From: Polaribacter sejongensis
GTDB lineage: Bacteria; Bacteroidota; Bacteroidia; Flavobacteriales; Flavobacteriaceae
Assembly: GCF_038024065.1 (NCBI RefSeq)
Contig: NZ_CP150667.1
Location: 2,487,501 to 2,551,500 of the forward strand
Length of the DNA: 64,000 nt
Direction of reading: 5' to 3'
The notes under the pieces are model-generated. The model saw nothing but the letters and a program-made list of their open reading frames with translations, did no database searches and had not been told where the DNA came from. The position numbers were made by a program, and so were the translations under genes. This document shows, one piece after another, positions 7,379 to 53,369 of the stretch (within the stretch, counting starts at the first letter, position 1; every line of letters starts with the position of its first letter).

Positions 7379-8587
7379 TTAATATAACACATACATTTTA
7401 CGAACTTCCTTAAAAAAAGTCAAGTCATTTTGCCAACTTAATTGTATTTCTTCAGACGATAAACCTGCTTCAATTTGCTGCTGTAATTCTTTTGTCCCTG
7501 CTAGCTTTAAAAAGAATTTATTAAAAAACTTTTCTTTATCAGCTGTTTGCGCATAAGATTCTATAAGCCATTCTAAATTTAAACTGCTTAATTTTTTATA
7601 AGTACGTAAATCTCTACCAAAACAAACTTCACCTTCGTGCTTTGGATGTTTTGCCCCAAAATTAGGTTTTGGTGTAAAACTGAAATCAAAAGAATCTTTT
7701 GCTAAAAAAGGCGAACCAAAAATTTGAAATTGCATTTCTGTACCTCTACCTGCACTTACATTTGTTCCTTCAAAAAAACATAAACTAGGATACAAATTAA
7801 TAGATTGTGCATTTGGTAAGTTTGGTGATGGTAAAATTGGTAAATCGTACTCAGAATTATGTGTGTAATTTTTTAAAGGAATTACTGTTAAATCACATTG
7901 AATTCCGTTTTCTAACCATTTTTCACCATTAATCATTTTCCCATACTCGCCAATTGTCATTCCGTAAACCGTAGGAACTGGATGCATGCCTACAAAGCTT
8001 TTTGCTTCTTCTTTTAACATCGGTCCATCTATATAATGCCCGTTAGGATTAGGACGATCTAACACAATAAGCGGAATATTTAACTCCGCACAAACCTCCA
8101 TAACATTATGCAAAGTAGAAATATACGTGTAGAAACGCACACCAACATCTTGTATATCGAACAGCATAACATCTAAACCCTTTAAATGCTCATGAGATGG
8201 TTTTCTGTTTGCGCCATATAAAGATATAATTGGTAAACCTGTAGTAGCATCAATACCATCCTCTACATGTTCGCCTGCATCTGCCTTCCCTCTAAAACCA
8301 TGTTCTGGAGCAAAAACTTTTGTGACATCCACATCTAAAGAAACTAAAGAATCTACCAAATGTACATGCGTATCACCTTTAAAAATAACACTTGTTTGGT
8401 TGGCAACAACACCCACTTTTTTACCTTTTAATAAATCTAAGTATTCTGCTGTTTGGTTAGCAGCAACAATAATTTTAACATCTTCTTTTACCTCAGTTAA
8501 ATTCGCAATTTCTGTTTCCTTTTCTTTATTTGGCTTAGCACTGCAGGAAACTAAAACAAGAGATATTAGTATTATTAAATTTTTCAT
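7379..8587 (-). CDS. namZ: DUF1343 lipoprotein, NamZ-type exo-beta-N-acetylmuramidase (GH171)
   Basis: NamZ of Bacillus subtilis removes MurNAc from the non-reducing end of peptidoglycan fragments and defines family GH171 (formerly DUF1343). This 402-residue protein has a lipoprotein signal (LVLVSCS). It carries the conserved stretches VVANQTSV, FAPEHGFRG, DAGEHVEDGID, LFDIQDVGVRFYTY and LDRPNPNG. It is the last gene of the minus-strand muramic acid locus, 9 bp after the GH18 gene. With the NagZ-like GH3 upstream it would degrade MurNAc-GlcNAc strands from the end. The family is certain; the activity is inferred from homology and from MurQ and a MurT-like transporter nearby. Confidence 0.85.
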   Translation of the reverse strand: MKNLIILISLVLVSCSAKPNKEKETEIANLTEVKEDVKIIVAANQTAEYLDLLKGKKVGVVANQTSVIFKGDTHVHLVDSLVSLDVDVTKVFAPEHGFRGKADAGEHVEDGIDATTGLPIISLYGANRKPSHEHLKGLDVMLFDIQDVGVRFYTYISTLHNVMEVCAELNIPLIVLDRPNPNGHYIDGPMLKEEAKSFVGMHPVPTVYGMTIGEYGKMINGEKWLENGIQCDLTVIPLKNYTHNSEYDLPILPSPNLPNAQSINLYPSLCFFEGTNVSAGRGTEMQFQIFGSPFLAKDSFDFSFTPKPNFGAKHPKHEGEVCFGRDLRTYKKLSSLNLEWLIESYAQTADKEKFFNKFFLKLAGTKELQQQIEAGLSSEEIQLSWQNDLTFFKEVRKMYVLY

Positions 8588-8596
8588 GATTGTAAA

Positions 8597-10063
8597 TTAT
8601 AAAGATGATTTTAAAATTTTTAATGTTGCTTGTTTTCCAGATTCATCAACAACTTTTAAGAAGTACACTCCATTTGAAAAATTAGAGATATCAATAGCTG
8701 TTTTTTGCAAATCGACTTCTTTAACTAATTCGCCTAAAATATTATAAACTCCAATTTTAGCGAATTTTATATTTTTTTCATTTGAAATATGAATACTATT
8801 ATTAGTAGGGTTAGGGTATACAGATATGATGTCATTCAAATAGGAATGTACATTAGCGGTTGAGCCAAACTTAGTATTGATTAACTCCCAAAGCTCTGGT
8901 CTTGTTCCATCATAATTTAAAGCCCAAATACCAACACCTCCTAAATTATTTTCTATTGCCAAATCGTATTTTTTTGAAATACTTAATTCATTATCTGCCC
9001 ATATTTGATTCCAATTTACACCATCATTCCAAGTATACCAAGGAACCTCAAAATCACTGTTCCAAATCCAACCTCCATAAGCACTTGCATCTACAGAAGT
9101 ATCTTTATATCTGGTTGATTTTACATGAGAAACTGTAGCTGATTCAGAAGTACTTGTTGCAGTTTTCCAATGTTGACCATAATACGGAATTGCCATCACC
9201 AACTTTTCTGGATTGTCTGTAACAGGCACTTTATAAGTTCCTGTTTCTATAGTTCTTTGAACAAATCTTTTCCAAGAAGTATGATGTGTTAAAGGCGCAA
9301 CTGGACCTGCATTGGCAGAAGATCCAGAAGTGTAATCGTATGCCATTATAATTAAATAATCTACACTATCTACTAAATCATCCATAATCCAACCTCCCCA
9401 ATTTACTGCCGGACCATCAAAAGAAACTTCTTTTCCTGGTAATTCTTGATGAATATAAGCAGTTAAAGCAGCCATAAACGTGTTTAACTCAGCACCTCTA
9501 TGCGCACTTGATATTCCTTCAAAATCGATATTAACTCCATCTAAATTATACGTTTCAATTAAATTTTTAACATTGGCGAAAAAAATATTTTTCTTAGCTG
9601 TATTTGTAAACAACTCCCAAGCCACTGCATCTGCACCGTCTGCTCCACCAAAATTTACAACAGTCATTATCACCTTTGTACCTGCTGCATGTGCTGCATT
9701 AATCTCTGTAGTCCAAGGCCAACCTGGAGGTGTAGAAATAGCAGCATCTAATTGTACTCTAAAATCAAAACAAGCCAAATGCGTTAATAAATTATACTGA
9801 ATATTATTGTGAGCGCCACTACTCTGCTCCCAATAAGGTAAAAAACCAAAAACTTTTTTAGACAATGCTTTAACAATTTTGCTTTGCAATGGAATAATTT
9901 CTGAAACAATTTTACCTGAACTTTTTTGATGTTTGGCTGAACCACCAAACTCTTCTGCTTGTAATTCATGAATTCCTTTCTTAATAATTTCTTGTGATAA
10001 AAGGCTATTACAAGAGAAAAAGACAAACAAGGAAAATACTGTGAAATGTAATAATTGTTTCAT
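8597..10063 (-). CDS. Secreted GH18 glycosidase with T9SS sorting domain
   Basis: GH18 enzymes cut beta-1,4 bonds next to GlcNAc in chitin or, in some members such as SleL, in peptidoglycan. Residues 70-395 form the barrel. The catalytic motif is D-G-V-N-I-D-F-E at 175-182, with Glu182 as the acid; it differs from the usual DGxDxDWE by Asn and Phe but keeps the essential acids. MAYDYTSG further on fits substrate-binding strand 6. Residues about 408-488 (VYPNPTNNSIHI, NFSNGVYFLKV) are a T9SS type A domain. The signal peptide is at the N-terminus. Given its place in a MurNAc locus I favour an endo-N-acetylglucosaminidase on peptidoglycan; chitinase is the alternative. Confidence 0.85.
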   Translation of the reverse strand: MKQLLHFTVFSLFVFFSCNSLLSQEIIKKGIHELQAEEFGGSAKHQKSSGKIVSEIIPLQSKIVKALSKKVFGFLPYWEQSSGAHNNIQYNLLTHLACFDFRVQLDAAISTPPGWPWTTEINAAHAAGTKVIMTVVNFGGADGADAVAWELFTNTAKKNIFFANVKNLIETYNLDGVNIDFEGISSAHRGAELNTFMAALTAYIHQELPGKEVSFDGPAVNWGGWIMDDLVDSVDYLIIMAYDYTSGSSANAGPVAPLTHHTSWKRFVQRTIETGTYKVPVTDNPEKLVMAIPYYGQHWKTATSTSESATVSHVKSTRYKDTSVDASAYGGWIWNSDFEVPWYTWNDGVNWNQIWADNELSISKKYDLAIENNLGGVGIWALNYDGTRPELWELINTKFGSTANVHSYLNDIISVYPNPTNNSIHISNEKNIKFAKIGVYNILGELVKEVDLQKTAIDISNFSNGVYFLKVVDESGKQATLKILKSSL

Positions 10064-10117
10064 AATTCTTGGTTTTAAGTTTTAGTTTTTTACAATACGA
10101 ATCTGTTTAAGTTATTT

Positions 10118-11809
10118 TTATTCTAAAATTTCAATTCCAGTACCTGCTATAAAATTTTCATTTAGCGATGCTGATAATTTTCCTTTTGTATCCTTATTCC
10201 CGATAATAATTTCTGCGGATACCTTTTGAGCTATATCTGTATTTTCATAAGAAATAACAGCTGCTTCTATATTTTCGAAGTCTAAATTTTCTAGACTGTA
10301 TTGACTTGCAAATACATCTAAAACAACCTTGTTACTTTTTGCTATTTCTTCTATTTTTAATTTATCTTCATCAGATATTTTTTTAGTCAATCGGCTATTC
10401 AATCGATGGTAACCAAGAATTACTTTATCATACGTTTTAAGCTTTATTAGCAATTCAGGTAGTTTTAAATCAGAAAAACCATCTACTTCAAAATGTGATT
10501 TTAAAGCGTTTAAAAAAGCAGCAGAATCTCCATCACCCAAACCTACAAATGCTATTTTTTCATTAGCATCCTTTTTAAGAGGAAGTATATTGTCATTCTT
10601 TAAAGCAGTAATAGCATCTATAAAAACAGCTTCATTTAAAACATCATTTGTTTCATCATTTAAATCGCTGATAAGATTTTCTATTTCAATTGGTTTAAAA
10701 TTATTTAAATCAACATCAAACTTAGATGCTAAAATCTTCTTTACAGAATGTGCCAATCTTTCTTCAGTTACCTCCTTATTATCATACGCTTCTACAATTT
10801 TAGAAATTCCTTTAGAAACATCTTCTCCCATTAATAAAACATCATTCCCTGCTTTAAATGCCGCTAAATCTACATCACCAGGTTCTTTAAAAGTAGACAC
10901 GCCTTTCATCTCTAATGCATCTGTAAATATTAACCCTTTAAATTGTAGTCTTCCCTTTAAAATATTGGTTACAATTTCGTGAGACAAAGAAGAAGGCAAA
11001 CCGTCGTTTTTTTCTAAACTTGGTACATTTAAGTGACCAACCATAACACCAGCCATATTGTTTTTAAATAATTTTTTATACGGATACATTTCTACCGAAT
11101 CTATTCGTTCTTTAGAAAGCGTAACAGTTGGTAGCGTTTTATGAGAATCTTTATCGGTATCTCCATGTCCTGGAAAATGTTTTGCACACGCCAATACATT
11201 CTGACTCTGCATACCTTCTGTATAAGCCAATGCTTTCTCTGTTACATTATACTTATCTTCAGAAAAAGAACGCACACCAATTATTGGGTTTTTAGAATTT
11301 GTATTGATATCTACCACAGGAGCAAAATTTATATGAACGCCTAAACGACTACAATGTTCGCCTATTTTCTCACCAACTTTCATTACCAAATCATTGTCTT
11401 GTACAGCACCCAACGTCATGTTATACGGAAACCTTGCTGTGCTATCTAAACGCATATTTAAACCCCATTCTGCATCCATTGCAATTAACAAAGGCACTTT
11501 AGAAGTAGCTTGATATAAATTTGTTTGCTTTGCCTGCCTTACTGGTCCTCCCTGAAAAAACACCAACCCTCCAATACCGTGTTCTTTAATTATTTTATTT
11601 AGATCATCTGTATGCTGTTGGTCTTTGTTAGAATAAGCTGCAATCATAAATAATTGCCCAACTCTTTCTTTTAAAGTCATTGTATTATAAATGCTATCTA
11701 CCCATTTTGTTCGTTCTGTATTTTCTGATGATTTGTTTACCGTTTGTTTTTTATCGCAACTTAAAACAACGAATAATAAGACTAAGAGTGTAGGAATTAA
11801 TTTTTTCAT
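10118..11809 (-). CDS. GH3 lipoprotein, NagZ-like beta-N-acetylglucosaminidase
   Basis: NagZ enzymes remove GlcNAc from GlcNAc-MurNAc disaccharides and muropeptides. The 563-residue protein has a lipobox (VVLSC, Cys18), the NagZ hallmark K-H-F-P-G-H-G with the D-S-H dyad (residues 210-223, His223 as acid/base) and the nucleophile region IFTDALEMKG (Asp297). A second alpha/beta domain follows. Unlike E. coli NagZ, which is cytoplasmic, this form is lipid-anchored and would act in the periplasm or at the surface before import. It lies in the operon between the NagX-like gene and GH18. Confidence 0.88.
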   Translation of the reverse strand: MKKLIPTLLVLLFVVLSCDKKQTVNKSSENTERTKWVDSIYNTMTLKERVGQLFMIAAYSNKDQQHTDDLNKIIKEHGIGGLVFFQGGPVRQAKQTNLYQATSKVPLLIAMDAEWGLNMRLDSTARFPYNMTLGAVQDNDLVMKVGEKIGEHCSRLGVHINFAPVVDINTNSKNPIIGVRSFSEDKYNVTEKALAYTEGMQSQNVLACAKHFPGHGDTDKDSHKTLPTVTLSKERIDSVEMYPYKKLFKNNMAGVMVGHLNVPSLEKNDGLPSSLSHEIVTNILKGRLQFKGLIFTDALEMKGVSTFKEPGDVDLAAFKAGNDVLLMGEDVSKGISKIVEAYDNKEVTEERLAHSVKKILASKFDVDLNNFKPIEIENLISDLNDETNDVLNEAVFIDAITALKNDNILPLKKDANEKIAFVGLGDGDSAAFLNALKSHFEVDGFSDLKLPELLIKLKTYDKVILGYHRLNSRLTKKISDEDKLKIEEIAKSNKVVLDVFASQYSLENLDFENIEAAVISYENTDIAQKVSAEIIIGNKDTKGKLSASLNENFIAGTGIEILE

Positions 11810-11818
11810 TTTTAGTAA

Positions 11819-12925
11819 TTAAATTTTTATAAATATTTTATTTCTGTGTAATAGGTACACTAAACACCAGAAAAAGACAATATGAGCAACTGCAAAAAGA
11901 AGTGATCCATTCATATTTCCGGCAATTGGAAAAAAAACATCTTGATACAAATATTGTTTTACTGATACTATTTCACCTTGTAAATTGGTGATTTTTATTA
12001 AATAAATAATCGTTTTTGCATACAAACCAGAAAACACAAAAATGAATAAAGGATTTGTACCAAAATGGATAAATGGTTTAGACCACGTTGTATATTTTTT
12101 TTCGTCGATAATCCATATTAAAAATGCCAAAAATAGCATTGCCCATCCTGCGGAAAAGCAAACGAAAGTACTTGACCAAAGCGATTTATTAATAGGAAAT
12201 ACAAAACCCCAAATGTAACCGAGCACAACAAGCCCAATTCCGAAGTTTAAAAGAGTTTTTATTTTAGTACTATTATCAGATCGTTTGCTTAAAAAATCAC
12301 CAGTTAGACTTCCAATAAGTACTGTTGCAATTGATGGTAACGTAGATAGTAATCCTTCCGGATCAAATGAGAAACCAAGTCCTTTCCAGATATGCTCTGG
12401 TCCAAATAAATACAAATCTATTTTACCTACTAAATTGGTTTGTGGACCATAAGGATTTTCAGGCATGAAGAAATATAAAATAGCCCAATAGCCAACTAAA
12501 ATTAATATGGTTATATAGATTAGATTTCTTTTATTGAAGAACAAACAAAGAGTAGCACCAATACCATAGGCAATTGCTATTCTTTGTAATACCCCAAAAT
12601 ACCGAACCGTTTCAAAATTAAATTTTGGGAATAAATTTAAAAACAATCCGATTACAAAAATTATTAAAGTTCTTTTAACAATCTTTTTGAGTGCCCTTTT
12701 ATACTCATTTTCTCTAAAGTTTTTAAAAGCATAATGTATGGACACCCCCACAATAAATAAAAAGAAAGGAAAAACAGCATCCGTTGGTGTAAAACCATGC
12801 CATTTTGCATGTAACAATGGCCAATAAACATAAGACCAACTCCCTGGTGTATTCACCAAAATCATGGAAGCAATTGTAATACCTCTCAGAACATCTAATG
12901 CTATTAATCTTTCTTTTAATGCCAT
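11819..12925 (-). CDS. NagX/HGSNAT-like membrane protein (DUF5009 type)
   Basis: This 368-residue protein has about ten hydrophobic segments and the family start LDVLRGITIASMILVN, then HAKWHGFTPTDAVFPFFLF. It belongs to the DUF1624/DUF5009 group related to lysosomal heparan-alpha-glucosaminide N-acetyltransferase, called NagX in bacterial GlcNAc gene clusters. It may carry acetyl groups across the membrane or take part in amino-sugar uptake; the biochemical role in bacteria is not settled. It sits 14 bp after murQ and 9 bp before the GH3 gene, so it is part of the muramic acid operon. Confidence 0.8.
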   Translation of the reverse strand: MALKERLIALDVLRGITIASMILVNTPGSWSYVYWPLLHAKWHGFTPTDAVFPFFLFIVGVSIHYAFKNFRENEYKRALKKIVKRTLIIFVIGLFLNLFPKFNFETVRYFGVLQRIAIAYGIGATLCLFFNKRNLIYITILILVGYWAILYFFMPENPYGPQTNLVGKIDLYLFGPEHIWKGLGFSFDPEGLLSTLPSIATVLIGSLTGDFLSKRSDNSTKIKTLLNFGIGLVVLGYIWGFVFPINKSLWSSTFVCFSAGWAMLFLAFLIWIIDEKKYTTWSKPFIHFGTNPLFIFVFSGLYAKTIIYLIKITNLQGEIVSVKQYLYQDVFFPIAGNMNGSLLFAVAHIVFFWCLVYLLHRNKIFIKI

Positions 12926-12939
12926 TTTTATAGAAAATA

Positions 12940-13761
12940 TTATTTTACCGCTTCTTTATAAGCTTCTATAGATTTCCGAACACTTTTATGTTGTTTCAAC
13001 AACTCACTTGCTAATTCTGTATCAATATTTAGTTCATCCATCACCATTTTTACACCTCTAGAAACTAGCTTTTTATTAGAAAGCTGCATGTCTACCATTT
13101 TGTTTCCTTTTACTCTACCTAGTTTTATCATAACCGTAGTAGAAATCATGTTTAAAGCCAATTTCTGAGCAGTTCCTGCTTTCATTCTTGTACTTCCTGT
13201 TACAAATTCTGGTCCTACTACTAATTCTATAGGGAAATCTGCTTCTAATGCAACAGGAGAACCTTCATTACACGTAATACAACCCGTAACTATGTTCTGC
13301 TCTTTTGCTTTTTGCATACCTCCTATTACGTAAGGTGTAGTACCAGAAGCTGCAATTCCTATTAAAACATCTTTATCTGAAATGTCATGTTCTTTTAAAG
13401 TTTCCCAAGCTAATTCTGTATCGTCTTCGGCATTTTCTACTGCTTTTCTAAGTGCAATATCTCCACCAGCAATAATTCCGATTACCCAATTATCAGAAAC
13501 GCCATAGGTTGGCGGACATTCAGAAGCATCTAACACTCCCAACCTTCCGCTTGTTCCTGCTCCAATATAAAACAGACGTCCTCCATTACTCATTTTTTCA
13601 TGAATTACATCTACAAGTTTATGTATGGATGGAATTGCCTTTTCAATTGCTAAAGGAACCAATTTATCCTCCGTATTCATATTTGTGAGTAACTCTGTGG
13701 TACTCATCTGCTCTAAGTTATTGTAATCTGATGCTTGTTCTGTAGTTAATTTATTCGTCAT
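12940..13761 (-). CDS. murQ: N-acetylmuramic acid 6-phosphate etherase MurQ
   Basis: MurQ splits MurNAc-6-phosphate into GlcNAc-6-phosphate and D-lactate in the cytoplasm. The SIS domain signature IGAGTSGRLGVLDASECPPTYG is split over residues 66-87, with the catalytic-type Glu81, and GSTRMKAGTAQKLALN follows. At 273 residues it is somewhat shorter than the ~300 of E. coli MurQ but lacks no visible motif. Its start overlaps the transporter gene by 11 bp, a sign of translational coupling. This is the gene that points the whole cluster to MurNAc. The kinase that should make its substrate is not nearby. Confidence 0.95.
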   Translation of the reverse strand: MTNKLTTEQASDYNNLEQMSTTELLTNMNTEDKLVPLAIEKAIPSIHKLVDVIHEKMSNGGRLFYIGAGTSGRLGVLDASECPPTYGVSDNWVIGIIAGGDIALRKAVENAEDDTELAWETLKEHDISDKDVLIGIAASGTTPYVIGGMQKAKEQNIVTGCITCNEGSPVALEADFPIELVVGPEFVTGSTRMKAGTAQKLALNMISTTVMIKLGRVKGNKMVDMQLSNKKLVSRGVKMVMDELNIDTELASELLKQHKSVRKSIEAYKEAVK

Positions 13762-15208
13762 TTTTGTTTCGTATAAGGATTAAACATAGTATAGTAAGGC
13801 ATGCATTTAATAAAATGTTCATAAAACCTAAATCAAATGAAAACTTAACTTTAACTATGTAATTTATGTAATAAGTAAGTAATGGCATTAAAACACAGAC
13901 ATAAGGTACCGCTGTATCTTTTATTTTTATTTTAGTAAAAATACCCAACAGGTAAAGCCCTAATAAAGGACCATACGTATAGCCTGCCACTTTAAAAATT
14001 GTTGTAATTACGTCTCCTTTACTTCCTGAAAACAACATTATAATAATGAAGATTACAATAGAGAAAGCTAGTAAAACATAATTTTTAAGACGTTTTTTTT
14101 CTTTTGAATTTTTATGAGTAATATCTAAAAAGTCATGTGTAAAAGATGTAGTTAACGCCGTTAATGACGAATCTACACTAGAAAATGAAGCAGCCGTAAT
14201 TCCTAAAATAAAACTGATTGCTGCTACTGTACCAAAACTCCCCAAAGAAAGCATTGGAAATAAGTTATCTGTATGAATAAATTGACCGTTTTCTGTTTCT
14301 AATTGAATTCCGAATTTTTCTGCATATAAATATAACATCACTCCTAAACCTAAAAATAAAAATTGTGCTAAGGCCAAGAATAAACTAAAGGTAAGAATGT
14401 TACGCTGCGCTTCCTTTTTACTTTTACAGGTTAATGTTTTTTGCATCATGTTTTGATCTAAACCAACCATGGCAACTGCAATTAAAATTCCTGAAATAAA
14501 CTGTTTAAAGAAATTGCTACCAGAATTAAAATCCCAATTAAAAACCTTAAAATATTTATGATTTGTCACAGATGTAATGGTTTCCGAAAAACTTAAATTT
14601 AAAGAATCTTTAATGATATATATAGATACAACTGCTGCCAATAATAGAAAAAATGTTTGCAACGTATCTGTCCAAACAATTGTTTTAATACCAGATTTGT
14701 TTGTGTACATCCATATTAAAATCAATATGATAATTACCGTTAAGAAAAACGGAATATTCAACGCATCAAAAACAGCATATTGTAAAATTTTTGCGGCTAA
14801 CAATAATCTTAAAGCAGCTCCAAACGATTGAGATATCAGAAAAAATAAGGAACCTGTTTTATAGGTTTTAGGACCAAATCTTGTTTCTAAATAACTATAA
14901 ATAGAAACGAGTTGTAAATTGTAATAAATAGGAATTAACACATAGGTGATAAAAATATATCCTACTACATTACCAAAAACAAATTGTAAATAATAGAAAT
15001 AATTATTACTTACCATTCCTGGAATAGAAACAAATGTAACACCAGACATTACGGCTCCAATCATTCCAAAAGCAACTACTTGCCATGGAGATTTTCTATC
15101 TCCGGTGTAAAAAGAATCATCACTTGTATTTTTTGAAGCAAAGTGAGATATTAACATTAATACTCCAAAATAAGAGATAATGATTAATAAAATTATGGTT
15201 GAATTCAT
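13751..15208 (-). CDS. Sodium:solute symporter, MurT-like (probable MurNAc importer)
   Basis: This is an inner-membrane protein of the SSS family: 485 residues, about 13 hydrophobic segments, start MNSTIILLIIISYFGVLMLISHFASKN split by polar turns, and the family stretch GITAASFSSVDSSLTALTT. In Tannerella forsythia an SSS-family protein (MurT) encoded with murK and murQ imports MurNAc without phosphorylating it. The 11-bp overlap with murQ supports the same job here. The family is firm; the substrate is inferred from the neighbours. Confidence 0.85.
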   Translation of the reverse strand: MNSTIILLIIISYFGVLMLISHFASKNTSDDSFYTGDRKSPWQVVAFGMIGAVMSGVTFVSIPGMVSNNYFYYLQFVFGNVVGYIFITYVLIPIYYNLQLVSIYSYLETRFGPKTYKTGSLFFLISQSFGAALRLLLAAKILQYAVFDALNIPFFLTVIIILILIWMYTNKSGIKTIVWTDTLQTFFLLLAAVVSIYIIKDSLNLSFSETITSVTNHKYFKVFNWDFNSGSNFFKQFISGILIAVAMVGLDQNMMQKTLTCKSKKEAQRNILTFSLFLALAQFLFLGLGVMLYLYAEKFGIQLETENGQFIHTDNLFPMLSLGSFGTVAAISFILGITAASFSSVDSSLTALTTSFTHDFLDITHKNSKEKKRLKNYVLLAFSIVIFIIIMLFSGSKGDVITTIFKVAGYTYGPLLGLYLLGIFTKIKIKDTAVPYVCVLMPLLTYYINYIVKVKFSFDLGFMNILLNACLTILCLILIRNKNDE

Positions 15209-15259
15209 GTACTTTATTGTTTAACGTTTTAAAATCTAAATCAGTCGATTAAAATATTT

Positions 15260-17269: not shown

Positions 17270-17277
17270 AAAGAGGA

Positions 17278-17781
17278 TTATTTTTCAAATGTGTATATTC
17301 TAAATATCACTTCACTTTTTGTTATTTTACTTGATTTAAATTGGACTTTTTGTACCGAATTTTTTAAATTTTGTGGCGAAAAGACTTTGCGATTTGGATT
17401 TTCGACATGCTCATTTTCCTTCAATTCTACCCAATCAGACCAAGCGTCATTTTCTAGCGTTTTATAAAAAACGGTGTAATCATCATTATATTTAGAATAC
17501 GCTGAAAGCATAGCTCCTGATGTTGTTGATAAATCAACCTCTACAGGTTTTCCTATTATATTCTTTTGATCATCTTCCTTTGAAAAAGTTTGATCAATAA
17601 CAAAAACATTATCTTCTTTGACAATGGAAACTTCATTGTTGTTTGGTGTAGTTGGTGTAGTAACCTTCGGCTTAACCTCCACGTTACTCTCCTCCACTTT
17701 TTTCTTAGAATTATCTTTACAATTACTTACTAAAAGTAAAAGGATAATAAAGTAAGGTATTATTGATTTATGATTTTTCAT
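17278..17781 (-). CDS. Small lipoprotein preceding the amidase, function unknown
   Basis: This 167-residue protein has a lipoprotein signal (LLLLVSNC, Cys21), a charged Pro/Thr linker (VKPKVTTPTTPNN) and a ~100-residue beta-rich domain with AWSDWVELKENEHVENPNR and KVQFKSSKI. I do not recognise a named family. The W-x-x-W-x-x-L pattern recalls the beta domain often found in front of the amidase domain in flavobacterial PGRPs, so it could be that domain encoded as a separate, lipid-anchored subunit. It ends 8 bp before the amidase gene and is certainly in its operon. Confidence 0.7.
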   Translation of the reverse strand: MKNHKSIIPYFIILLLLVSNCKDNSKKKVEESNVEVKPKVTTPTTPNNNEVSIVKEDNVFVIDQTFSKEDDQKNIIGKPVEVDLSTTSGAMLSAYSKYNDDYTVFYKTLENDAWSDWVELKENEHVENPNRKVFSPQNLKNSVQKVQFKSSKITKSEVIFRIYTFEK

Positions 17782-17872
17782 ATGTATACAGTCTTAATTC
17801 TTACCCTCTTAAATAGTTATATATTAAAAATTAGTCCTCCTATATTTGACTTCAAATTACATTCTTTAAAAT

Positions 17873-17910
17873 AAGGAGTGAGAATCGACTTTCATACCAT
17901 CTCACCCCTT
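17873..17910 (-). terminator. Stem-loop between susD and the enzyme genes
   Basis: AAGGAGTGAGA (17873-17883) and TCTCACCCCTT (17900-17910) pair with one mismatch around a 16-base loop. On the minus strand it is followed by ATTTTAAAG. It lies in the 191-bp gap after SusC/SusD and could end most transcription there, giving more SusCD than enzymes. Such partial terminators are common after susCD pairs. Confidence 0.6.
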
Positions 17911-17972
17911 ACTAGTTCAAAAAAATAAAAAAAACAAACATTAAATTAATTATTGGGGGACTCGCTTTATAA

Positions 17973-19469
17973 TTAATTTTTATCCCACCACATTCTTGTG
18001 GTTAAAAGATCTCCTCCCTGTACAGCTATTGCAGCTTCAACATTGGTAGAATTATTTAATTTTTCGGATGCTGGATAAGGAAGTCTTCTAGGGATTTCTC
18101 CATTGGTAAGAGTTGCCGCAACATTTGCAGGTACTAAAGCTGGATATCCTGATCTTTTCCAGTTAGAAAAAGTCTCTAAACCATTACCAAAAGTTGCTAC
18201 CCAATATTGCTCATTTATCATTTTTAAAGCTTGCGCTGGCACAAACGGATTAGCACTTAAATAATCATTTATTTGAGTAGTTGTAATATCTGCAGCACTT
18301 CCATACATAGATAAATATTGCATTGCCGCTGTTACACCTGCATTATAATGCGTTTCTACATTTGATGCTCCTCCGGCTAAACCCCAACGTTCTGCAGATT
18401 CTGCTAACATAAACTCTACTTCTGCATAGGTTTGAAAGAAAAAAGGCGCATCATAAATGACAGTACCAGAACCTCCAAAAATGTTAATATTTGGCTTAGA
18501 ATTTGCTTCACCCCTTGTTTCATCGTTGATATCTTGTCCAAATTGTAGTGCAAAATCAGTATTTCCATCCACTGTAGATGCTAAAACAGAAACTCTTGGA
18601 TCGTTTCTTGTTTTCATAAAATCCATGAAAGTTTTAGAAATCTTAACCTGTGTAGATGCTCTAGAAGTAAAACCTTTTGTTAACGGGTTTACGTTTGGTC
18701 CTCCATCATTTGCCGAGTTTTCGTATTGAATATATGCAATATCTTCATTGCTTGTCATTACACCTCCATCAATTGCTTTGGTTGCCCAAGATTTAGCAGC
18801 AGCTTCATCTACTTTTACCATTCGCAGTGCTAAACGTAACATTAATGAATTTGCAAACTTATTCCATTTTGCAACATCACCAGAAAACATTAAATCTGCA
18901 GAACCAAAAGAACTTGTTCCGCCAGCACTTAAAGTTGCGGTTGCACTCTCTAAAGACAATAACATGTCTGCATAAATAGCACTTTGCTGATCATATTTAG
19001 GAAAACGAATTCCTTCTAAAAAACCTTTACCAGCTTCACTGTAAGGAATATCTCCATACACATCTGTAATTCTACTAAAAATTAATACTTTTTGCACTTT
19101 AGTAATTGCCAAATCCATCGTTGCTGTTGGCTCTGTACTTACCTCTAATTGTGCTTCTAAATCTACAATATTCTTTACCGTAGTTTTAAATTGCTCTTCA
19201 AATAACCAATGTGTATTTCCTTCTTTATATAAAAATGATGCATACGACGTATTATTTAAATGTTGTACGTTTTGCATTAAGTGAATTATATTCCAAAATA
19301 AATAGGCTACATAACTACTACCACCTGTATATAACTGAACATAGGTGAATTTTGTAGAAGGATCTAATTGTACTGGCTTTGTTGGATTTACATTAAGTTC
19401 TTCGAAACCATCGTCACAAGCACTTAAAGTAAACATTATAATTATGAATGAAATAAATATTTTTTTCAT
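17973..19469 (-). CDS. SusD/RagB-family outer-membrane lipoprotein (muramic acid locus)
   Basis: SusD proteins sit as substrate-binding lids on SusC channels. The 498-residue protein has a lipobox (TLSACDDGFEELNVNP, Cys18), the usual start of the SusD-like 2 family, and a typical C-terminus (NGLETFSNWKRSGYPALVP, GEIPRRLPYP). It is encoded 11 bp after SusC. The substrate is inferred from the downstream MurQ/NamZ set as peptidoglycan fragments or MurNAc-containing saccharides. Confidence 0.92.
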   Translation of the reverse strand: MKKIFISFIIIMFTLSACDDGFEELNVNPTKPVQLDPSTKFTYVQLYTGGSSYVAYLFWNIIHLMQNVQHLNNTSYASFLYKEGNTHWLFEEQFKTTVKNIVDLEAQLEVSTEPTATMDLAITKVQKVLIFSRITDVYGDIPYSEAGKGFLEGIRFPKYDQQSAIYADMLLSLESATATLSAGGTSSFGSADLMFSGDVAKWNKFANSLMLRLALRMVKVDEAAAKSWATKAIDGGVMTSNEDIAYIQYENSANDGGPNVNPLTKGFTSRASTQVKISKTFMDFMKTRNDPRVSVLASTVDGNTDFALQFGQDINDETRGEANSKPNINIFGGSGTVIYDAPFFFQTYAEVEFMLAESAERWGLAGGASNVETHYNAGVTAAMQYLSMYGSAADITTTQINDYLSANPFVPAQALKMINEQYWVATFGNGLETFSNWKRSGYPALVPANVAATLTNGEIPRRLPYPASEKLNNSTNVEAAIAVQGGDLLTTRMWWDKN

Positions 19470-19480
19470 GATCTATTTTT

Positions 19481-22400
19481 TTAAAATTTAACATTTATTG
19501 CGAATCCATAACTTCTAGTTGATGGTGTTCCGAATCTTTCTATACCCTGAGAATTTAAATTGTTTAATGAAGCTTCTGGGTCTACGTTATCTATTTTTTT
19601 AGAAATGTAAAATAGATTTCTTCCTATTAAAGAAAGTCTTACATCACTTACAAAAATATTTTCTAACGTTTTTTTCGGTAAACTATAAGCTATACTTAAT
19701 TCTCTAAATTTTATAAAATCTGTACTGTAAACAAACTCTTCTGAAATACCAGAGTTTTCTTCACCAATAAAACCATAATAAGTTCTTAAGTTTTCTGGTG
19801 CTACAGTCATTGTAAATGGGTTTCCTGTTGCATCATCTATGCCAGACACCACTAAACCATCTTCTCTACCTTCTAATGTTTTTTCATGTAAACCTCGCAT
19901 CATTAACTCTCTGTTAGTACCAGAATGAACACTTCCGCCAAACTTAGCATCAATTAAAAAGTTTAATGAAAAATCTTTGTATTTAAAAGAGTTAGAAAAA
20001 CCTAAAGTATATGGTGCAACACCTTGTCCTAAAATTTTATTTTCTCCCTGAATTGGTTTCGGAATAGACCCCGTTGTATTGTACATAATGTTACCATCAG
20101 CATCCCTCTTGTAAGAAGACCCCCAAATTACACCATAATTTTCGCCAACTATATGAGAAATAATTGCTGTTCTAGAACGCGTCTGGCTACCATCAACATT
20201 AATAGCAGTATCCTCATCATCTGTATGAACGATTTCACTGTCGTTATAACCAAAATTGAAAGAAGTGTACCATGAAAAATCTTCCGTTTTAATTGGAGTA
20301 CCACCTATTAAAAATTCAAAACCTTTATTTTGAAGTTCTCCAATATTAAGAATTGACGATGTAAAACCAGATGATTGAGATGCAGAAGCACTTACAATAT
20401 CATTAGTAGTTTGATTTTGATAATAAGCAACATCTAAATTTAAACGATTCTGAAAGAAACGTCCATCAAAACCTACTTCAAATTCATTCTTTTGAAAAGG
20501 AACTAAGTTAGGGTTAGGAATAGAATTACCATTTAATTGCCCAAAAGATTGTCCTTGAAAAGAACCTGTAATTGCATAATCTAAATTTAAACTATAAGCA
20601 TTACTAGCTCCACCCGCAACTTGCGCGTAACTTGCTCTAAATTTAGCATAATTAACTTGTTCTGGTAAATCAAACAATTCGTTTAATAATAAACTCTGAC
20701 TTAGAGACCAGTAAAAACCATTGTTTGGAGTTGTCTTTCCAGGAAAAGATAGTGTAGAAAACCAATCGTTTCTTCCTGTAAATGTTAAGTAAAAGTACTT
20801 GTCATAACTTACTTCAAAAGATCCATAAAGTGAATTTGTTTTTGTTTTAGAATATCCAAAACTTGGTTCTGGCAACGTTGTATTGTTAATATCTTCTAAA
20901 CCTTCAACAATAAAACCTCTACCCAATGCACTTAAAGATTCGAAAGATGATGTTCTTGTATTTGCTCCAATAATTGAGCTTGTAGAAATTTTTTCTGTTA
21001 AATCTTTATTAATACCTAACATTAAATCTCCATTAAACAGTGTATACGTAGATTTTGCTTCTGTCATTTCACCAGCTGGTCTGTATGCTGTTCCAAAAGG
21101 AGTTACTCTTCTTCTACTTAAATCATAGGTATCTATACCTGCACGACCTGTTAAATATAACCAATCATTAAAATCATATTTTAAAGATGTAGATGCTGTA
21201 AATCTATTTTTCTTATCATCATTATTAAAAGCATCTGTTGCCCAATATGGATTAGAAATAAACTGACTTGGTTGAAACAATAACTCTGTACCTTCTTCAT
21301 TAAAGCCTGGTTTTAAATCTGTAATATTAAGACTACTTGGCAACACATAGGCTACTGTATTTGCATTACCTGGTGTATCTCCAATATTAATACGATTATG
21401 TACTTTTTCAATAACATATTTTGCATTAACTGTAGATGTTAATTTAGGAGTAATATTTGCAGAAGCATTTAATGATATCGATTTTCTATTTAAAGTAGTA
21501 TTCGGAAAAATATCATCATTATCTAAATTAGAAAAAGACAAACGATAATTATATTCCTCTCCTCCTTTAGATAATGCTACTGTATTTATAACTGTAGAAC
21601 CTACGTTGTAAAATTTATCTAGGTTATTTCCTGTATTTGAATAAGGTCTTTTAGTACCATCCCAATTATAAACCATTGAGCCATCTAATTTATCTCCCCA
21701 AGACTGTAAAGAACTTACAAAAGAATCATCAATTGCATTGGCTATATTAGAAATTTCAACTGGCTGACCGCTACCATCATACTCATAACCTGGTTTTAAT
21801 CTATTATTTCCTTGTCCGTAAGTAGTTTGAAAATTTTGTAAATCAGTATTAATTTTATCAAAAGTAAAAGAACTAGAAAGCTCTACGCCCATTCTTTTTT
21901 GACCTTTTCCTGATTTTGTAGTAATCATAATAACACCGTTAGATGCTAAAGAACCGTAAAGTGCGGCAGCAGAACTTCCTTTTAAAACGGAAACACTTTC
22001 AATATCATCTGGGTTTAATGAAGAAATATCATCTCCTCCATCTCCTGTTCCATCATTGGTTGCACCAACTACAGAACCATTTGTGTTGTTAATAATAGGA
22101 ATTCCGTCAATTACATATAAAGGTTGGTTGTTTCCTGTTAATGAACTTGCTCCACGAATAATTACCCTACTAGATCCAGCAGCTCCTCCACTACCTGCAG
22201 AAATATTTACACCAGCAACTCTACCTTGTAAAGAATTAACAGCACTTGTGCTTTTTACCGCAGACATATCTTCTCCACCAACTTCCGTTAAAGAATACCC
22301 TAAAGATTTTGCCGCTCTTTTAATACCAAGTGCGGTAACCACAATCTCATCTAAACCAGTAGCATCTGCTTCTAACGCTGCGTTTATAACTTGATTTTCT

Positions 22401-22669
22401 CCAGTTAAGGTTATTGTAACCGTTTTATAACCAAGATAACTAAAGGCAATTGTTTTTCCTTTTAAATCCTCAGCCTTAATAGAATAATTCCCATCAAAGT
22501 CGGTAACACTACCCTTATTAATTTGACTAATAAAAACGCTAACTTCCGGCAATGGTATTTCACTGCCTTTCTCTGTAACAACTCCCGAAATAGTCCTTAA
22601 TTGAGCAAATGTACTTTGCACAATCAAAAACACTATCAAGGACAATGTTAGTTTGTAATTTTTTTTCAT
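19481..22669 (-). CDS. SusC/RagA-family TonB-linked outer-membrane transporter (muramic acid locus)
   Basis: This 1062-residue protein has a signal peptide, an N-terminal carboxypeptidase-D-like domain (about 24-105: ISGVVTEKGSEIPLPEVSV, FSYLGYKTVTITL), the TonB-dependent plug (about 110-240: LDEIVVTALGIKR, VIRGASSL, PLYVIDGIPI, SVLKGSSAAALYG) and a 22-strand barrel ending in the aromatic FAINVKF. It is the first gene of the minus-strand locus, with its own promoter in the divergent region. It likely imports muropeptides or amino-sugar saccharides with the SusD encoded after it. Confidence 0.94.
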   Translation of the reverse strand: MKKNYKLTLSLIVFLIVQSTFAQLRTISGVVTEKGSEIPLPEVSVFISQINKGSVTDFDGNYSIKAEDLKGKTIAFSYLGYKTVTITLTGENQVINAALEADATGLDEIVVTALGIKRAAKSLGYSLTEVGGEDMSAVKSTSAVNSLQGRVAGVNISAGSGGAAGSSRVIIRGASSLTGNNQPLYVIDGIPIINNTNGSVVGATNDGTGDGGDDISSLNPDDIESVSVLKGSSAAALYGSLASNGVIMITTKSGKGQKRMGVELSSSFTFDKINTDLQNFQTTYGQGNNRLKPGYEYDGSGQPVEISNIANAIDDSFVSSLQSWGDKLDGSMVYNWDGTKRPYSNTGNNLDKFYNVGSTVINTVALSKGGEEYNYRLSFSNLDNDDIFPNTTLNRKSISLNASANITPKLTSTVNAKYVIEKVHNRINIGDTPGNANTVAYVLPSSLNITDLKPGFNEEGTELLFQPSQFISNPYWATDAFNNDDKKNRFTASTSLKYDFNDWLYLTGRAGIDTYDLSRRRVTPFGTAYRPAGEMTEAKSTYTLFNGDLMLGINKDLTEKISTSSIIGANTRTSSFESLSALGRGFIVEGLEDINNTTLPEPSFGYSKTKTNSLYGSFEVSYDKYFYLTFTGRNDWFSTLSFPGKTTPNNGFYWSLSQSLLLNELFDLPEQVNYAKFRASYAQVAGGASNAYSLNLDYAITGSFQGQSFGQLNGNSIPNPNLVPFQKNEFEVGFDGRFFQNRLNLDVAYYQNQTTNDIVSASASQSSGFTSSILNIGELQNKGFEFLIGGTPIKTEDFSWYTSFNFGYNDSEIVHTDDEDTAINVDGSQTRSRTAIISHIVGENYGVIWGSSYKRDADGNIMYNTTGSIPKPIQGENKILGQGVAPYTLGFSNSFKYKDFSLNFLIDAKFGGSVHSGTNRELMMRGLHEKTLEGREDGLVVSGIDDATGNPFTMTVAPENLRTYYGFIGEENSGISEEFVYSTDFIKFRELSIAYSLPKKTLENIFVSDVRLSLIGRNLFYISKKIDNVDPEASLNNLNSQGIERFGTPSTRSYGFAINVKF

Positions 22670-22695
22670 CTAGTTTGAATTTGAATTATTTAAGG

Positions 22696-22725
22696 TAAAG
22701 ATATAAAAAAAACAAAAAGCTGCAA
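22696..22725 (-). promoter_or_regulatory. SusC promoter of the muramic acid locus
   Basis: On the minus strand TTG (22725-22723) and TATCTTTA (22703-22696) are 19 bases apart. This fits the Bacteroidota consensus with one mismatch (last base A instead of G). It lies 27 bp before the susC ATG. Confidence 0.5.
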
Positions 22726-22735
22726 GTTAATTGCA
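22721..22735. promoter_or_regulatory. TGCAA-N5-TTGCA palindrome over the SusC -33 region
   Basis: TGCAA-gttaa-TTGCA overlaps the -33 TTG of the susC promoter, and a further TTGCAA lies at about 22741-22746. Its place is right for a repressor site. The arms are only five bases, so chance is possible in this AT-rich spacer. Confidence 0.3.
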
Positions 22736-22931
22736 TGAATTTGCAATATTTAATAAAATTATTCGAAAAATTAAATATTTCAAGAAAAAAACACGCATCC
22801 ATTGCGATTTCAAGAATTATTAAAAATTACCAAATAAGCACAAAATCAATCAAATACAACAATAAATGAATGTATCACTAAGGAAAATGAACAAAAGCTA
22901 CTCTATTTAACATTAATTGTAAATTAGTTAA

Positions 22932-22963
22932 TTTTTGCGTTTTTAATTACAAAAACGCAAAAA
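22932..22963. promoter_or_regulatory. Perfect 13-bp inverted repeat, candidate DeoR operator
   Basis: TTTTTGCGTTTTT (22932-22944) and AAAAACGCAAAAA (22951-22963) form a perfect inverted repeat around six bases. A degenerate third arm, AAAAACGGCAAAAA, follows directly. It lies 34 bp upstream of the deoR-type gene's -33 element in the spacer shared with susC. As a hairpin it lacks a proper T tract for either strand, so an operator for the adjacent DeoR-family regulator is the better reading. Confidence 0.55.
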
Positions 22964-22996
22964 AACGGCAAAAAAAATCATTTTAAATAAAAAGCA

Positions 22997-23029
22997 TTTG
23001 CAAAATGGTTAAATAAAATCTTACTTTTG
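22997..23029 (+). promoter_or_regulatory. Promoter of the DeoR-family regulator gene
   Basis: TTTG (22997-23000), 21 bases, then TACTTTTG (23022-23029) is a full match to the Bacteroidota primary promoter. The ATG follows 16 bases later, giving a very short leader. Confidence 0.7.
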
Positions 23030-23045
23030 AAAAAATCATTTTTTT

Positions 23046-23795
23046 ATGAAAAAGAAAGAGAGACAGCAAAAAGTAGTAGACGAAGTAAGTATTAACAGAC
23101 AGGTTAGTTCCACTTTTTTGGCTGAAAAATTAAATGTTTCAGAAGACACTATTAGAAGAGATATAAAGGAGTTAGATAAAAAAGGACTACTAACCAAAGT
23201 ACATGGAGGAGCAATTTCTACCATGCAAAAACTCTATCATTATAATGAAGATGTAATCTACAAAAGAGAAGAAAAAGTTGTTATTGCTAAGAAAGCAATT
23301 ACTTTAGTAGAAGACGGAATGGTTATTATAATGAGTGGAGGTACTACAAATTTGATGTTAGCAAAATTATTTCCAAAAAATTTAAAAGCAACCATTTATA
23401 CATATAGCTTACCAATTGCAATGCAATTGGCAGAACACGCAACTATTGAAACTATTTTTATTGGTGGTAGAATACAAAGAAACTCGATGGTAACAACCGG
23501 TATAGATGTAATTCAATATTTATCTAACATTACCGCAAATCTTTGCTTTATAGGTGTAAGTGCTTTTAATGCTGAACAAGGAATTACCGGCGAAGGCTAC
23601 GAGGTTGCATTGGTTAAAAAAGCAATGATTGATTCTTCTGAACGCAATGTCTACCTATCTACTTCCAACAAACTAAATATCAGGCTAAATTACGATATCT
23701 GCCCTCTTAAAGAAATTGATATTGCCATTACAGATCTAGAACTAGACGATCCTATATTAAAACCCTATATTGACTCTGGCGTAGTTTTAATGTAA
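23046..23795 (+). CDS. DeoR-family transcriptional regulator of the muramic acid locus
   Basis: This 249-residue protein has an N-terminal DeoR helix-turn-helix (residues 3-57: VSSTFLAEKLNVSEDTIRRD, then the family signature KKGLLTKVHGGAIS). The C-terminal isomerase-like sensor domain (about 75-235) has MSGGTTNLMLAKLF and IFIGGRIQR. These domains usually bind sugar phosphates, so MurNAc-6-P or GlcNAc-6-P is a sensible effector. It is divergent from susC and 50 bp ahead of the GHL10 gene. It probably represses the divergent promoters. Confidence 0.9.
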   Translation: MKKKERQQKVVDEVSINRQVSSTFLAEKLNVSEDTIRRDIKELDKKGLLTKVHGGAISTMQKLYHYNEDVIYKREEKVVIAKKAITLVEDGMVIIMSGGTTNLMLAKLFPKNLKATIYTYSLPIAMQLAEHATIETIFIGGRIQRNSMVTTGIDVIQYLSNITANLCFIGVSAFNAEQGITGEGYEVALVKKAMIDSSERNVYLSTSNKLNIRLNYDICPLKEIDIAITDLELDDPILKPYIDSGVVLM

Positions 23796-23845
23796 TTTTC
23801 ATTAAGAAAAAAGGAGCGATTATTAGAATAAATACAACAACATCA

Positions 23846-25468
23846 ATGAAAATGCTTTTTTATAAAAACACCAAATCAATATATTTTATTGTTTTATTCA
23901 CTTTACTATTTATAAATTGTAGTAAAAAAGTCTATAATACAGAAATAAAAAAAGGCAATGAAACACAAAAAAACATTGAAATTGAAAAAAATGTTGATGT
24001 TGAAAAAATTATTGAAGCTAAAAAAATCATTGAGGTAAAAAAGCGGGTAGTTCCTGCTCCTGAAAGAGAATTTAGAGCTGCTTGGATTGCGAGTGTTGCT
24101 AATATAAATTGGCCAAGTAAACGTGGCCTTTCTAGCAAACAACAAAAAGAGGAAGCTATTAAATTATTAGACCTTCTTCATAAAAATAATTTTAACGCCG
24201 TTGTATTACAAGTTAGACCACAAGCAGACGCTATGTACAAAAGCGACTTAGAACCTTGGTCTTATTTTTTAACAGGAACGCAAGGCAAAGCGCCTTCTCC
24301 GTATTATGATCCTCTAGAATTTTGGATTAAAGAAGCACATAAAAGAGGACTAGAATTACACGCTTGGTTAAACCCTTATAGAGCACACCACACCACTGGA
24401 GGCGAAATAACCTCAGCCTCTATTGTTAGCAAACAACCAGAATTAGCTGTAAAACTAGAAACTGGTTTTTATTGGTTAGATCCAGGAAATAAAAAAACGC
24501 AAAACCATAGTTACAAAGTTGTTATGGACATTGTTGAAAGATATAATGTAGACGGAATTCATTTTGATGATTATTTTTACCCATACCCTTCTTACAACAA
24601 CAATAAAGATTTCCCTGATGATAAAAGCTGGAAAGCATACTTAAACACTGGTGGAAAATTAAAAAGAGATGATTGGAGACGAGACAATGTAAACCAATTT
24701 GTTAAAAGTATTTACACAAACATAAAAGAAACAAAACCTAACGTAAAATTCGGAATTAGTCCTTTTGGTTTTTGGAGACCAAATTATCCTGCATCAGTAA
24801 CTGCTGGTTTTGACCAATACAGCGACTTGTATGCAGACGCAAAATTATGGTTAAACGAAGGCTGGATAGATTATTTTACACCGCAATTGTATTGGCCAAT
24901 TAATAGAATGGATGTTAGTTTTCCTGTTTTATTAAATTGGTGGATAGGAGAAAACACCAAAGAAAGACATCTTTGGCCAGGAATGAGTATTGGCAGAAAA
25001 AAAGGAGAAGAAGCCATTGACGAAACCATCAATCAAATTATGATTACACGCGGAATGACCTCAAAATCTCCAGGAACGGTGCATTGGAGCATTGCGCCTT
25101 TAATTGATTCTCCAGAACTTACGGAAGCAATTTTTAACGGTCCTTATAAAAAACAAGCATTAACACCAAGTTACCCTTGGTTAAGTACAACAACACCAGA
25201 AGCACCAACGGTAAATTATTCGAAAGAAAAAAACAACTTACAGGTAACTTGGACGCATAAAAACATTGATAAAATTGCCAATTGGGTAGTGTACTACAAA
25301 TACAACTCTAAATGGGATTATAGCATTCATGGTAATTTCACAAACTCACAAAACATTCCATTAGTTAAGGTTGATGATAAAAATTCAAAAAGTATCTTAA
25401 AAGCAATTGCCATAACCGCTGTTGATAAATTTGGAAACGAGAGTATTGTAAAAGAGATTATTTTATAG
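23846..25468 (+). CDS. GHL10-family lipoprotein (DigH/YngK-like peptidoglycan glycosidase)
   Basis: The family (DUF187, PF02638) includes E. coli DigH (YddW), reported to cleave peptidoglycan strands already freed of stem peptides. The 540-residue protein has a lipoprotein signal (LLFINC) and a charged linker rich in Glu/Lys/Ile. The barrel (about 70-440) carries REFRAAWIASVANINWPS, VLQVRPQADAMY, LHAWLNPYRA, DGIHFDDYFYPYP and the strand SPFGFWRPNYP. A fibronectin-like tail follows (about 450-540). It lies behind the DeoR gene. Two Met codons (residues 1 and 3) are equally possible starts. The family is firm; activity on denuded glycan is inferred from DigH and from the amidase in the same locus. 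Confidence 0.85.
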   Translation: MKMLFYKNTKSIYFIVLFTLLFINCSKKVYNTEIKKGNETQKNIEIEKNVDVEKIIEAKKIIEVKKRVVPAPEREFRAAWIASVANINWPSKRGLSSKQQKEEAIKLLDLLHKNNFNAVVLQVRPQADAMYKSDLEPWSYFLTGTQGKAPSPYYDPLEFWIKEAHKRGLELHAWLNPYRAHHTTGGEITSASIVSKQPELAVKLETGFYWLDPGNKKTQNHSYKVVMDIVERYNVDGIHFDDYFYPYPSYNNNKDFPDDKSWKAYLNTGGKLKRDDWRRDNVNQFVKSIYTNIKETKPNVKFGISPFGFWRPNYPASVTAGFDQYSDLYADAKLWLNEGWIDYFTPQLYWPINRMDVSFPVLLNWWIGENTKERHLWPGMSIGRKKGEEAIDETINQIMITRGMTSKSPGTVHWSIAPLIDSPELTEAIFNGPYKKQALTPSYPWLSTTTPEAPTVNYSKEKNNLQVTWTHKNIDKIANWVVYYKYNSKWDYSIHGNFTNSQNIPLVKVDDKNSKSILKAIAITAVDKFGNESIVKEIIL

Positions 25469-53365: not shown

Positions 53366-53369
53366 TTTC

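Follow-up and report, generated by a model that had tools for sequence, protein, structure and literature searches.

The locus described here raises the question of whether a marine flavobacterium carries a dedicated system for taking up bacterial cell wall from its surroundings, or whether the same enzymes recycle its own wall or act on another polymer such as chitin. It occupies positions 7379..25468 of a 64,000-nucleotide stretch of the Polaribacter sejongensis genome (contig NZ_CP150667.1, positions 2,487,501 to 2,551,500; hereafter the window), and a preliminary description had read it as a SusCD-linked locus for the utilisation of peptidoglycan and N-acetylmuramic acid (MurNAc). This claim is upheld, since MurQ, NamZ, a Cwp19-related GHL10 protein and an amidase of the peptidoglycan recognition protein (PGRP) type all point to peptidoglycan. 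We put at about three in four the probability that the locus is a polysaccharide utilisation locus (PUL)-type system acting on glycan fragments of peptidoglycan that come from outside the cell.

Organisation of the locus

All twelve open reading frames were confirmed in coordinates and strand and, with families assigned by Pfam and NCBIfam scans, the divergent twelve-gene unit stands as first proposed. On the minus strand, the genes for a SusC-like TonB-dependent transporter (19481..22669, Pfam scan) and a SusD-like outer-membrane lipoprotein (17973..19469; SusD-like_2, 268.6 bits) form a tandem pair with 11 bp between them, and the linkage of this pair to GH3, GH18, NamZ and GHL10 proteins and to a DeoR regulator is that of a PUL. 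Intergenic gaps on this strand are 8-54 bp, except for 191 bp between the gene of a small lipoprotein-like protein and SusD, and the genes for MurQ and an SSF symporter overlap by 11 bp. On the plus strand, the DeoR-family regulator (23046..23795; Pfam and NCBIfam scans) diverges from SusC across 376 bp and is followed, after a further 50 bp, by GHL10 (23846..25468). Judged by eye, a lipobox-like cysteine is present at the N-termini of NamZ, GH3, GHL10, SusD and the small protein.

Enzymes with a bearing on the substrate

MurQ, the MurNAc-6-phosphate (MurNAc-6-P) etherase (12940..13761, minus strand), scores 382.7 bits against NF003915, for which the cut-off is 168; the enzyme splits MurNAc-6-P into N-acetylglucosamine-6-phosphate (GlcNAc-6-P) and D-lactate. 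NamZ, a predicted GH171-type exo-beta-N-acetylmuramidase with a lipoprotein-like N-terminus (7379..8587, minus strand), has both of its Pfam domains above cut-off (NamZ_N 271.5 bits, NamZ_C 115.1 bits) and matches PDB entry 4jja at 5.5e-111. For the GHL10 glycoside hydrolase-like protein (lipoprotein-like N-terminus; GHL10, 207.6 bits), the only solved relative at a threshold of 0.001 is Cwp19 (PDB 5oq2, 8.4e-77), which is a lytic transglycosylase; the preliminary description had called GHL10 DigH-like. The predicted secreted amidase (15260..17269, minus strand) combines an Amidase_2 domain with a CARDB match and a type IX secretion system (T9SS) tail, and its matches among solved structures include PGRP proteins (best 1.7e-21).

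The GH3 protein (10118..11809, minus strand; lipoprotein-like N-terminus), which has both the N and the C domain of GH3, is a beta-N-acetylglucosaminidase of the NagZ type by its solved matches, which are GH3 N-acetylglucosaminidases and NagZ (best 2.1e-61), and by its motifs, KHFPGHGDTDKDSH at residue 210 and FTDALEM. The motif typical of NagZ-type GH3 enzymes is KH(F/I)PG(H/L)GxxxxD(S/T)H, and KHFPGHG and DSH are kept in all 15 GH3 rows aligned. The GH18 protein (8597..10063, minus strand; domain scan) ends in a T9SS C-terminal tail and bears the active-site motif DGVNIDFE, found as DGVN(I/M)DFE in four of the four locus members aligned. Its substrate is the least certain of the set, because YdhD (2.4e-13, the best solved match), a chitinase (5.1e-11) and then further chitinases, and a cortex-lytic enzyme (2.7e-8) all match. 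The small lipoprotein-like protein (17278..17781, minus strand; 167 aa) is a predicted beta-sandwich without a family; 13 relatives are listed, one of them probably the window's own, and those that are named come from Polaribacter atrinae. Both for this protein and for the NagX-like protein discussed below, the best named relatives are from Polaribacter.

Conservation in relatives

We tabulated 16 other PUL-type loci in all, several of them short contigs, and chose eight near-relative loci by a MurQ at least 75% identical to that of the window (G014, G133, G125, G024, G013, G129, L010 and L011). The search for the same gene order in relatives, suggested in the preliminary description, succeeded in part: most of the gene set recurs together in the eight loci, most members at 58-87% protein identity and with G129 and L011 as exceptions, but the order is only partly shared and the amidase is absent. 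By this recurrence, the grouping of the genes is more than chance. The SSF symporter and MurQ are present in all eight (MurQ by construction of the sample), GH3 in seven, and NamZ, at 58% identity or above, in seven; L011, a 15-kb contig, has NamZ only of a distant type (39%). SusC and SusD at 72% or above are found in six of the eight loci and DeoR at 73% or above likewise in six, the SusC and DeoR of G129 being 25% and 44% identical, respectively, while the NagX-like gene is found in five. In L010, from an uncultured Polaribacter, GHL10, DeoR, SSF, MurQ, NagX, GH3, GH18 and NamZ are kept at 69-87%.

Additional genes in the relatives' loci encode a distant second NamZ, DUF6259, an FAD-linked oxidase with 4Fe-4S, a major facilitator superfamily (MFS) protein, a NagB/PIG-L fusion and AnmK. 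The DUF6259-type protein, of about 760 aa, occurs in five murein-type PULs of relatives (L098:16930-19224, L096:5585-7873, L100:14373-16700, L011:7693-9987 and L105:1434-3713), in four of them between SSF and MurQ.

Conservation also bears on whether the substrate could be chitin or another polymer of N-acetylglucosamine (GlcNAc), with MurQ and NamZ as mere passengers. The GH18 protein resembles chitinases as well as YdhD, NagZ-type GH3 enzymes can act on chitobiose (RmNag3, PMC6987092), and NagX is described as frequent in chitin operons (PMC9007349). However, the most constant members of the near loci are MurQ, SSF and NamZ (eight, eight and seven of eight, MurQ by construction), with GH18 among the least constant (three of eight); the amidase and the Cwp19-like GHL10 have no obvious role on chitin; and the genome holds a separate SusCD cluster with a BadF kinase, NagB/PIG-L and an MFS protein at C1:366000-384000. 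We regard a chitin substrate as very improbable.

Core and accessory copies of MurQ and NamZ

MurQ and NamZ each occur in this genome as a core copy, like that of nearly all family genomes sampled, and as the SusCD-linked copy of the locus. Across 149 same-family genomes (148 genera; the family taken as Flavobacteriaceae), NamZ_N is found in 141, mostly in single copy, and MurQ in 142; this genome has two of each, the second NamZ lying at C1:1563764 and the second MurQ at C1:4429965. Only seven of the 149 genomes, our own included, have a MurQ at least 75% identical to that of the window, and the distribution is bimodal, with 75-79% in six other genomes and at most 72% in the rest. In all six, among the matches listed, NamZ lies within 12 kb on the same contig.

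Phylogeny gives the same division. The MurQ tree holds 90 sequences (80 homologues, eight from further genomes, the window copy and the own second copy) with a bootstrap not fully settled, and groups the window MurQ with 24 others (25 rows; support 99/95), of which 21 are labelled as PUL copies, two as symporter-only and two as 'lone'; the latter two, L023 and L054, actually have SusC/SusD beside MurQ. Four PUL-labelled rows fall outside the clade (two from Pontibacter, one each from Sphingobacterium and a Bacteroidales bacterium), as does the own second MurQ, which sits among the lone copies. NamZ behaves similarly: in its tree of 25 rows, a group of nine (100/99) unites the window copy with those from PULs, and the own second copy lies just outside.

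The preliminary description had allowed either feeding on the walls of other bacteria or recovery of the cell's own, and these paralogues favour the first. Recycling of shed wall fragments, with SusCD recapturing what leaks out, would employ the very enzymes of the locus; three of its glycosidases are lipoprotein-like and possibly periplasmic, and L010 retains the majority of the genes but shows no SusCD in the stretch examined. Nonetheless, a separate MurQ and NamZ are already present in this and nearly all sampled genomes of the family, the locus MurQ is an accessory paralogue, and SusCD together with the T9SS enzymes points outward. Since core copies of MurQ and NamZ exist apart from the locus, an exogenous substrate is favoured and plain recycling appears unlikely, if less so than chitin.

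Two observations concern these paralogues themselves. Behind the core MurQ, in the same orientation, lies the gene of a TseH-like plus DUF6695 protein (L110:7724-8725, equal to G000:C1:4428723-4429724), perhaps a recycling wall peptidase. A very divergent second NamZ clade, on a long branch, is found in the PULs of G014, G133, G129, L011, L085 and L012 (e.g. L098:14169-15356), often directly before SSF, the position taken in the window by the amidase and the small lipoprotein.

Several results weigh against uptake of peptidoglycan from outside. Chitinases are among the matches of GH18, and no more than three of the eight near loci have GHL10, the same number as have GH18. None of the 16 other loci, several of which are short contigs, carries the amidase, for which no database search was made; the preliminary description's use of this enzyme as a general first step is therefore not sustained. 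The small lipoprotein is likewise in none of the 16, though Polaribacter relatives exist. L010 has no SusCD within its 20.8-kb stretch, so that some of these genes may function independently of SusCD, and the PULs compared gave no match to a BadF-type kinase. Finally, the same-genus genome G131 has one MurQ, at 62% identity, and one NamZ, which indicates that not every member of the genus has the locus MurQ.

A three-box element upstream of SusC

A three-box element, YGCA-N6-TGC(A/T)-N7-T(A/G)C(A/G), precedes SusC in the window, G133, G125, G024 and G013, where 76-79 bp separate its 5' end from the start codon. The putative operator of the window has the form TGCA-N6-TGCA-N7-TGCA (22721..22745, minus strand). 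In G014 it lies upstream of a more distant second SusC, the orthologous SusC being without the full spacing. In L010, which has no SusC, it stands before the SSF gene with a very short ATG frame behind (L010:7738-8553), an arrangement that looks as if SusCD had been lost. The element is present in seven of the eight stretches and appeared in none of 300 shuffling rounds, a test that is optimistic because the relaxed pattern was derived from the very sequences tested, the motif was the reason for choosing the L010 stretch, and the SusC start of G125 was shifted 69 bases downstream by homology.

Within its own genome the TGCA form has two exact matches, and only the window copy is outside open frames of at least 120 codons, the second match lying within a 458-codon frame. 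Allowing one mismatch adds 23 matches (25 in total, against 7 for the reversed pattern), but this list was left unused because four of its matches are identical copies of one repeat. As a test of operator sharing with the kinase genes, the three-box patterns were also sought in L007, L008 and L009, with no match in these stretches. The DeoR regulator is the candidate binder of the TGCA-type element, through which it probably controls the divergent promoters.

Which protein moves MurNAc

The SSF sodium:solute symporter (13751..15208, minus strand; domain scan), a candidate importer of MurNAc, GlcNAc or small fragments, had been called MurT-like in the preliminary description. MurT of Tannerella forsythia has been placed in the sodium symporter superfamily and, elsewhere, in the MFS (PMC5790795), and NagX is described as distantly related to it (PMC9007349). 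With MurK as query against 395 genomes from the phylum, we obtained five matches in four genomes at 1e-75 or better. In two of these, G372 and G380, a kinase is flanked by MurQ on one side and a NagX-like protein on the other. NamZ follows immediately in G372 and after one intervening gene in G380. No MurQ adjoins the second kinase of G372 or the kinases of G489 and G332. The NagX-like protein of the window lies next to MurQ and is 41-42% identical to these NagX-like proteins of the murK-murQ slot. The synteny thus suggests that the MurT homologue of the window may be the NagX-like gene (11819..12925, minus strand), and the MurT label for the SSF symporter is not supported.

The NagX-like protein is an integral membrane protein that reaches 164.4 bits against NF046061, below the curated cut-off of 480 and hence short of assignment as a NagX equivalog; no Pfam family was found at an E-value of 1e-3. 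Its resemblance to HGSNAT (PDB match, 4.3e-21) extends to the active site, with N25, H39 and D49 aligning with N286, H297 and D307, the catalytic residues of HGSNAT (PMC11199644). The aligned residues are invariant in 11 of 11 and 16 of 16 sequences, an incomplete protein of G024 being left out.

Tentatively, the NagX-like protein could be the MurNAc importer, a true MurT, with SSF carrying GlcNAc or another product of the same pathway. This would agree with its relatives occupying the murK-murQ slot in G372 and G380, and with the finding that MurT together with MurK lets an Escherichia coli murP mutant grow on MurNAc (PMC5790795). It is at odds with the invariance of the HGSNAT-type residues, with the case made by Price et al. 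for NagX as an acetyltransferase (PMC9007349), and with SSF adjoining MurQ even in loci without a NagX match. Such adjacency is also seen in Pontibacter, Sphingobacterium and a Bacteroidales bacterium (SSF 45-51% identical), which keeps SSF a good candidate for MurNAc import. A slightly more doubtful proposal is that Tannerella MurT is itself an acetyltransferase, instead of or besides a MurNAc transporter, and that SSF is the true MurNAc importer of flavobacteria. Because it encodes both an SSF symporter and a protein of the MurT/NagX type, the locus is a good place to settle which of the two carries MurNAc, and whether transport or acetyl transfer is the function of MurT.

Steps encoded outside the locus

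The preliminary description spoke of a complete route, which overstates the gene content: a MurNAc kinase, a GlcNAc-6-P deacetylase or deaminase and a D-lactate oxidase are not among the twelve genes. A kinase within the locus was considered and rejected, as no BadF-family match was found there, and the search for BadF and AnmK was made in the own genome instead. It contains a single AnmK, near C1:2020952, and two BadF-family matches, of which one scores below the Pfam cut-off. Both BadF-family kinases (C1:1981253-1982101 and C1:374588-375442) resemble solved MurK, and the former is the more MurK-like (2.4e-54, though under the Pfam cut-off). In the alignment this candidate MurNAc kinase has Glu at the MurK T94 position and V-P-S-L replacing V-S-P-L, differences that may bear on its specificity. 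Homologues of the MurK-like kinase are present in 146 of the 149 family genomes at 1e-60.

The second kinase (C1:374588-375442) clusters with the NagB/PIG-L fusion (C1:375777-377705), an MFS gene and a SusC/SusD pair in C1:366000-384000. This stretch (L007) is likely a GlcNAc-type cluster and could supply missing steps. AnmK is found inside two PULs, at L107:2080-3288 (G134) and L086:15603-16808 (Flavobacterium phragmitis), and both loci also have GHL10. The FAD-linked oxidase of the relatives' PULs has a 67% homologue in the own genome (C1:1014782-1017652); a lactate-type oxidase of this kind would fit the D-lactate expected from MurQ. That a NagB/PIG-L fusion, FAD-linked oxidase, MFS protein or AnmK joins some relatives' loci is expected if the products of MurQ are catabolised.

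Elsewhere in the window, the protein at 29200-30423 matches an OmpA-like barrel over residues 60-205 and PagL over residues 278-395, and a second SusC/SusD-type pair lies at 51917-56630, near a redoxin/DUF4369 protein.

Proposed route and relation to known systems

The sequence itself shows which genes and families are present, how they are conserved and duplicated, and where the repeat element stands; each reaction, location, substrate and regulatory role in the route that follows is inferred. The secreted T9SS amidase would remove peptides and the T9SS GH18 would cut the strands shorter, after which SusCD could move oligosaccharides across the outer membrane. The lipoprotein-like GHL10, NagZ-type GH3 and NamZ would degrade them to GlcNAc and MurNAc, for import by the SSF symporter or the NagX/MurT-like protein. 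A kinase encoded elsewhere would yield MurNAc-6-P, from which MurQ would make GlcNAc-6-P and D-lactate. Phosphorylation and the later steps would fall to the BadF-family kinases, AnmK, the NagB/PIG-L fusion and the FAD-linked oxidase, and DeoR would probably control the divergent promoters via the TGCA-type repeat element.

The preliminary description knew of no such locus described in a marine flavobacterium, and our literature search on peptidoglycan PULs with NamZ gave no paper, though descriptions in other wording may be missed. However, a 2023 study of a Urechidicola symbiont lists a Flavobacteriaceae PUL of nearly the same content (susCD, deoR, a Na+ symporter, murQ, amidase, GH3, GH18, GH171 and GH10; PMC10199937), a likeness of family names and not of compared sequences, in which GH10 is probably GHL10. 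The locus type is therefore already in print, in that section of the study as a gene list without functional tests (PMC10199937). The Urechidicola PUL differs in having two susCD pairs together with nagB, ampG, bioF, ycgG, dacA and nhaC, whereas the twelve genes described here include one pair and none of those six, but have NagX, the small lipoprotein and a T9SS tail on the amidase.

The nine-gene cluster of T. forsythia, with ampG and murTKQ (PMC7670621, PMC5790795), shares MurQ with the window and, by inferred homology, a MurT-type (NagX-like) protein; neither a kinase nor AmpG is among the window's twelve genes, which in turn include SusCD, DeoR, SSF and secreted hydrolases. NagX of chitin and glucosamine operons is similarly an HGSNAT-like membrane protein with a catalytic histidine (PMC9007349), but the NagX-like gene of the window differs in its score (164 vs 480 bits) and in its place between MurQ and the NagZ-type GH3.

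Two features are new here: the element YGCA-N6-TGCW-N7-TRCR, which relatives carry ahead of SusC, and a T9SS amidase that none of the 16 other loci compared has. The locus is real and conserved, an accessory PUL of the peptidoglycan type whose amidase is a local variant. Its chief additional benefit is that the MurT/NagX conflict becomes testable at this locus. Wall material of bacteria is abundant as a polymer in seawater, and we judge its uptake by marine Bacteroidota to be little studied; with its defined set of genes, its predicted regulatory element and a core paralogue to serve as internal control, the locus and its relatives would make the uptake of foreign wall separable from recycling.

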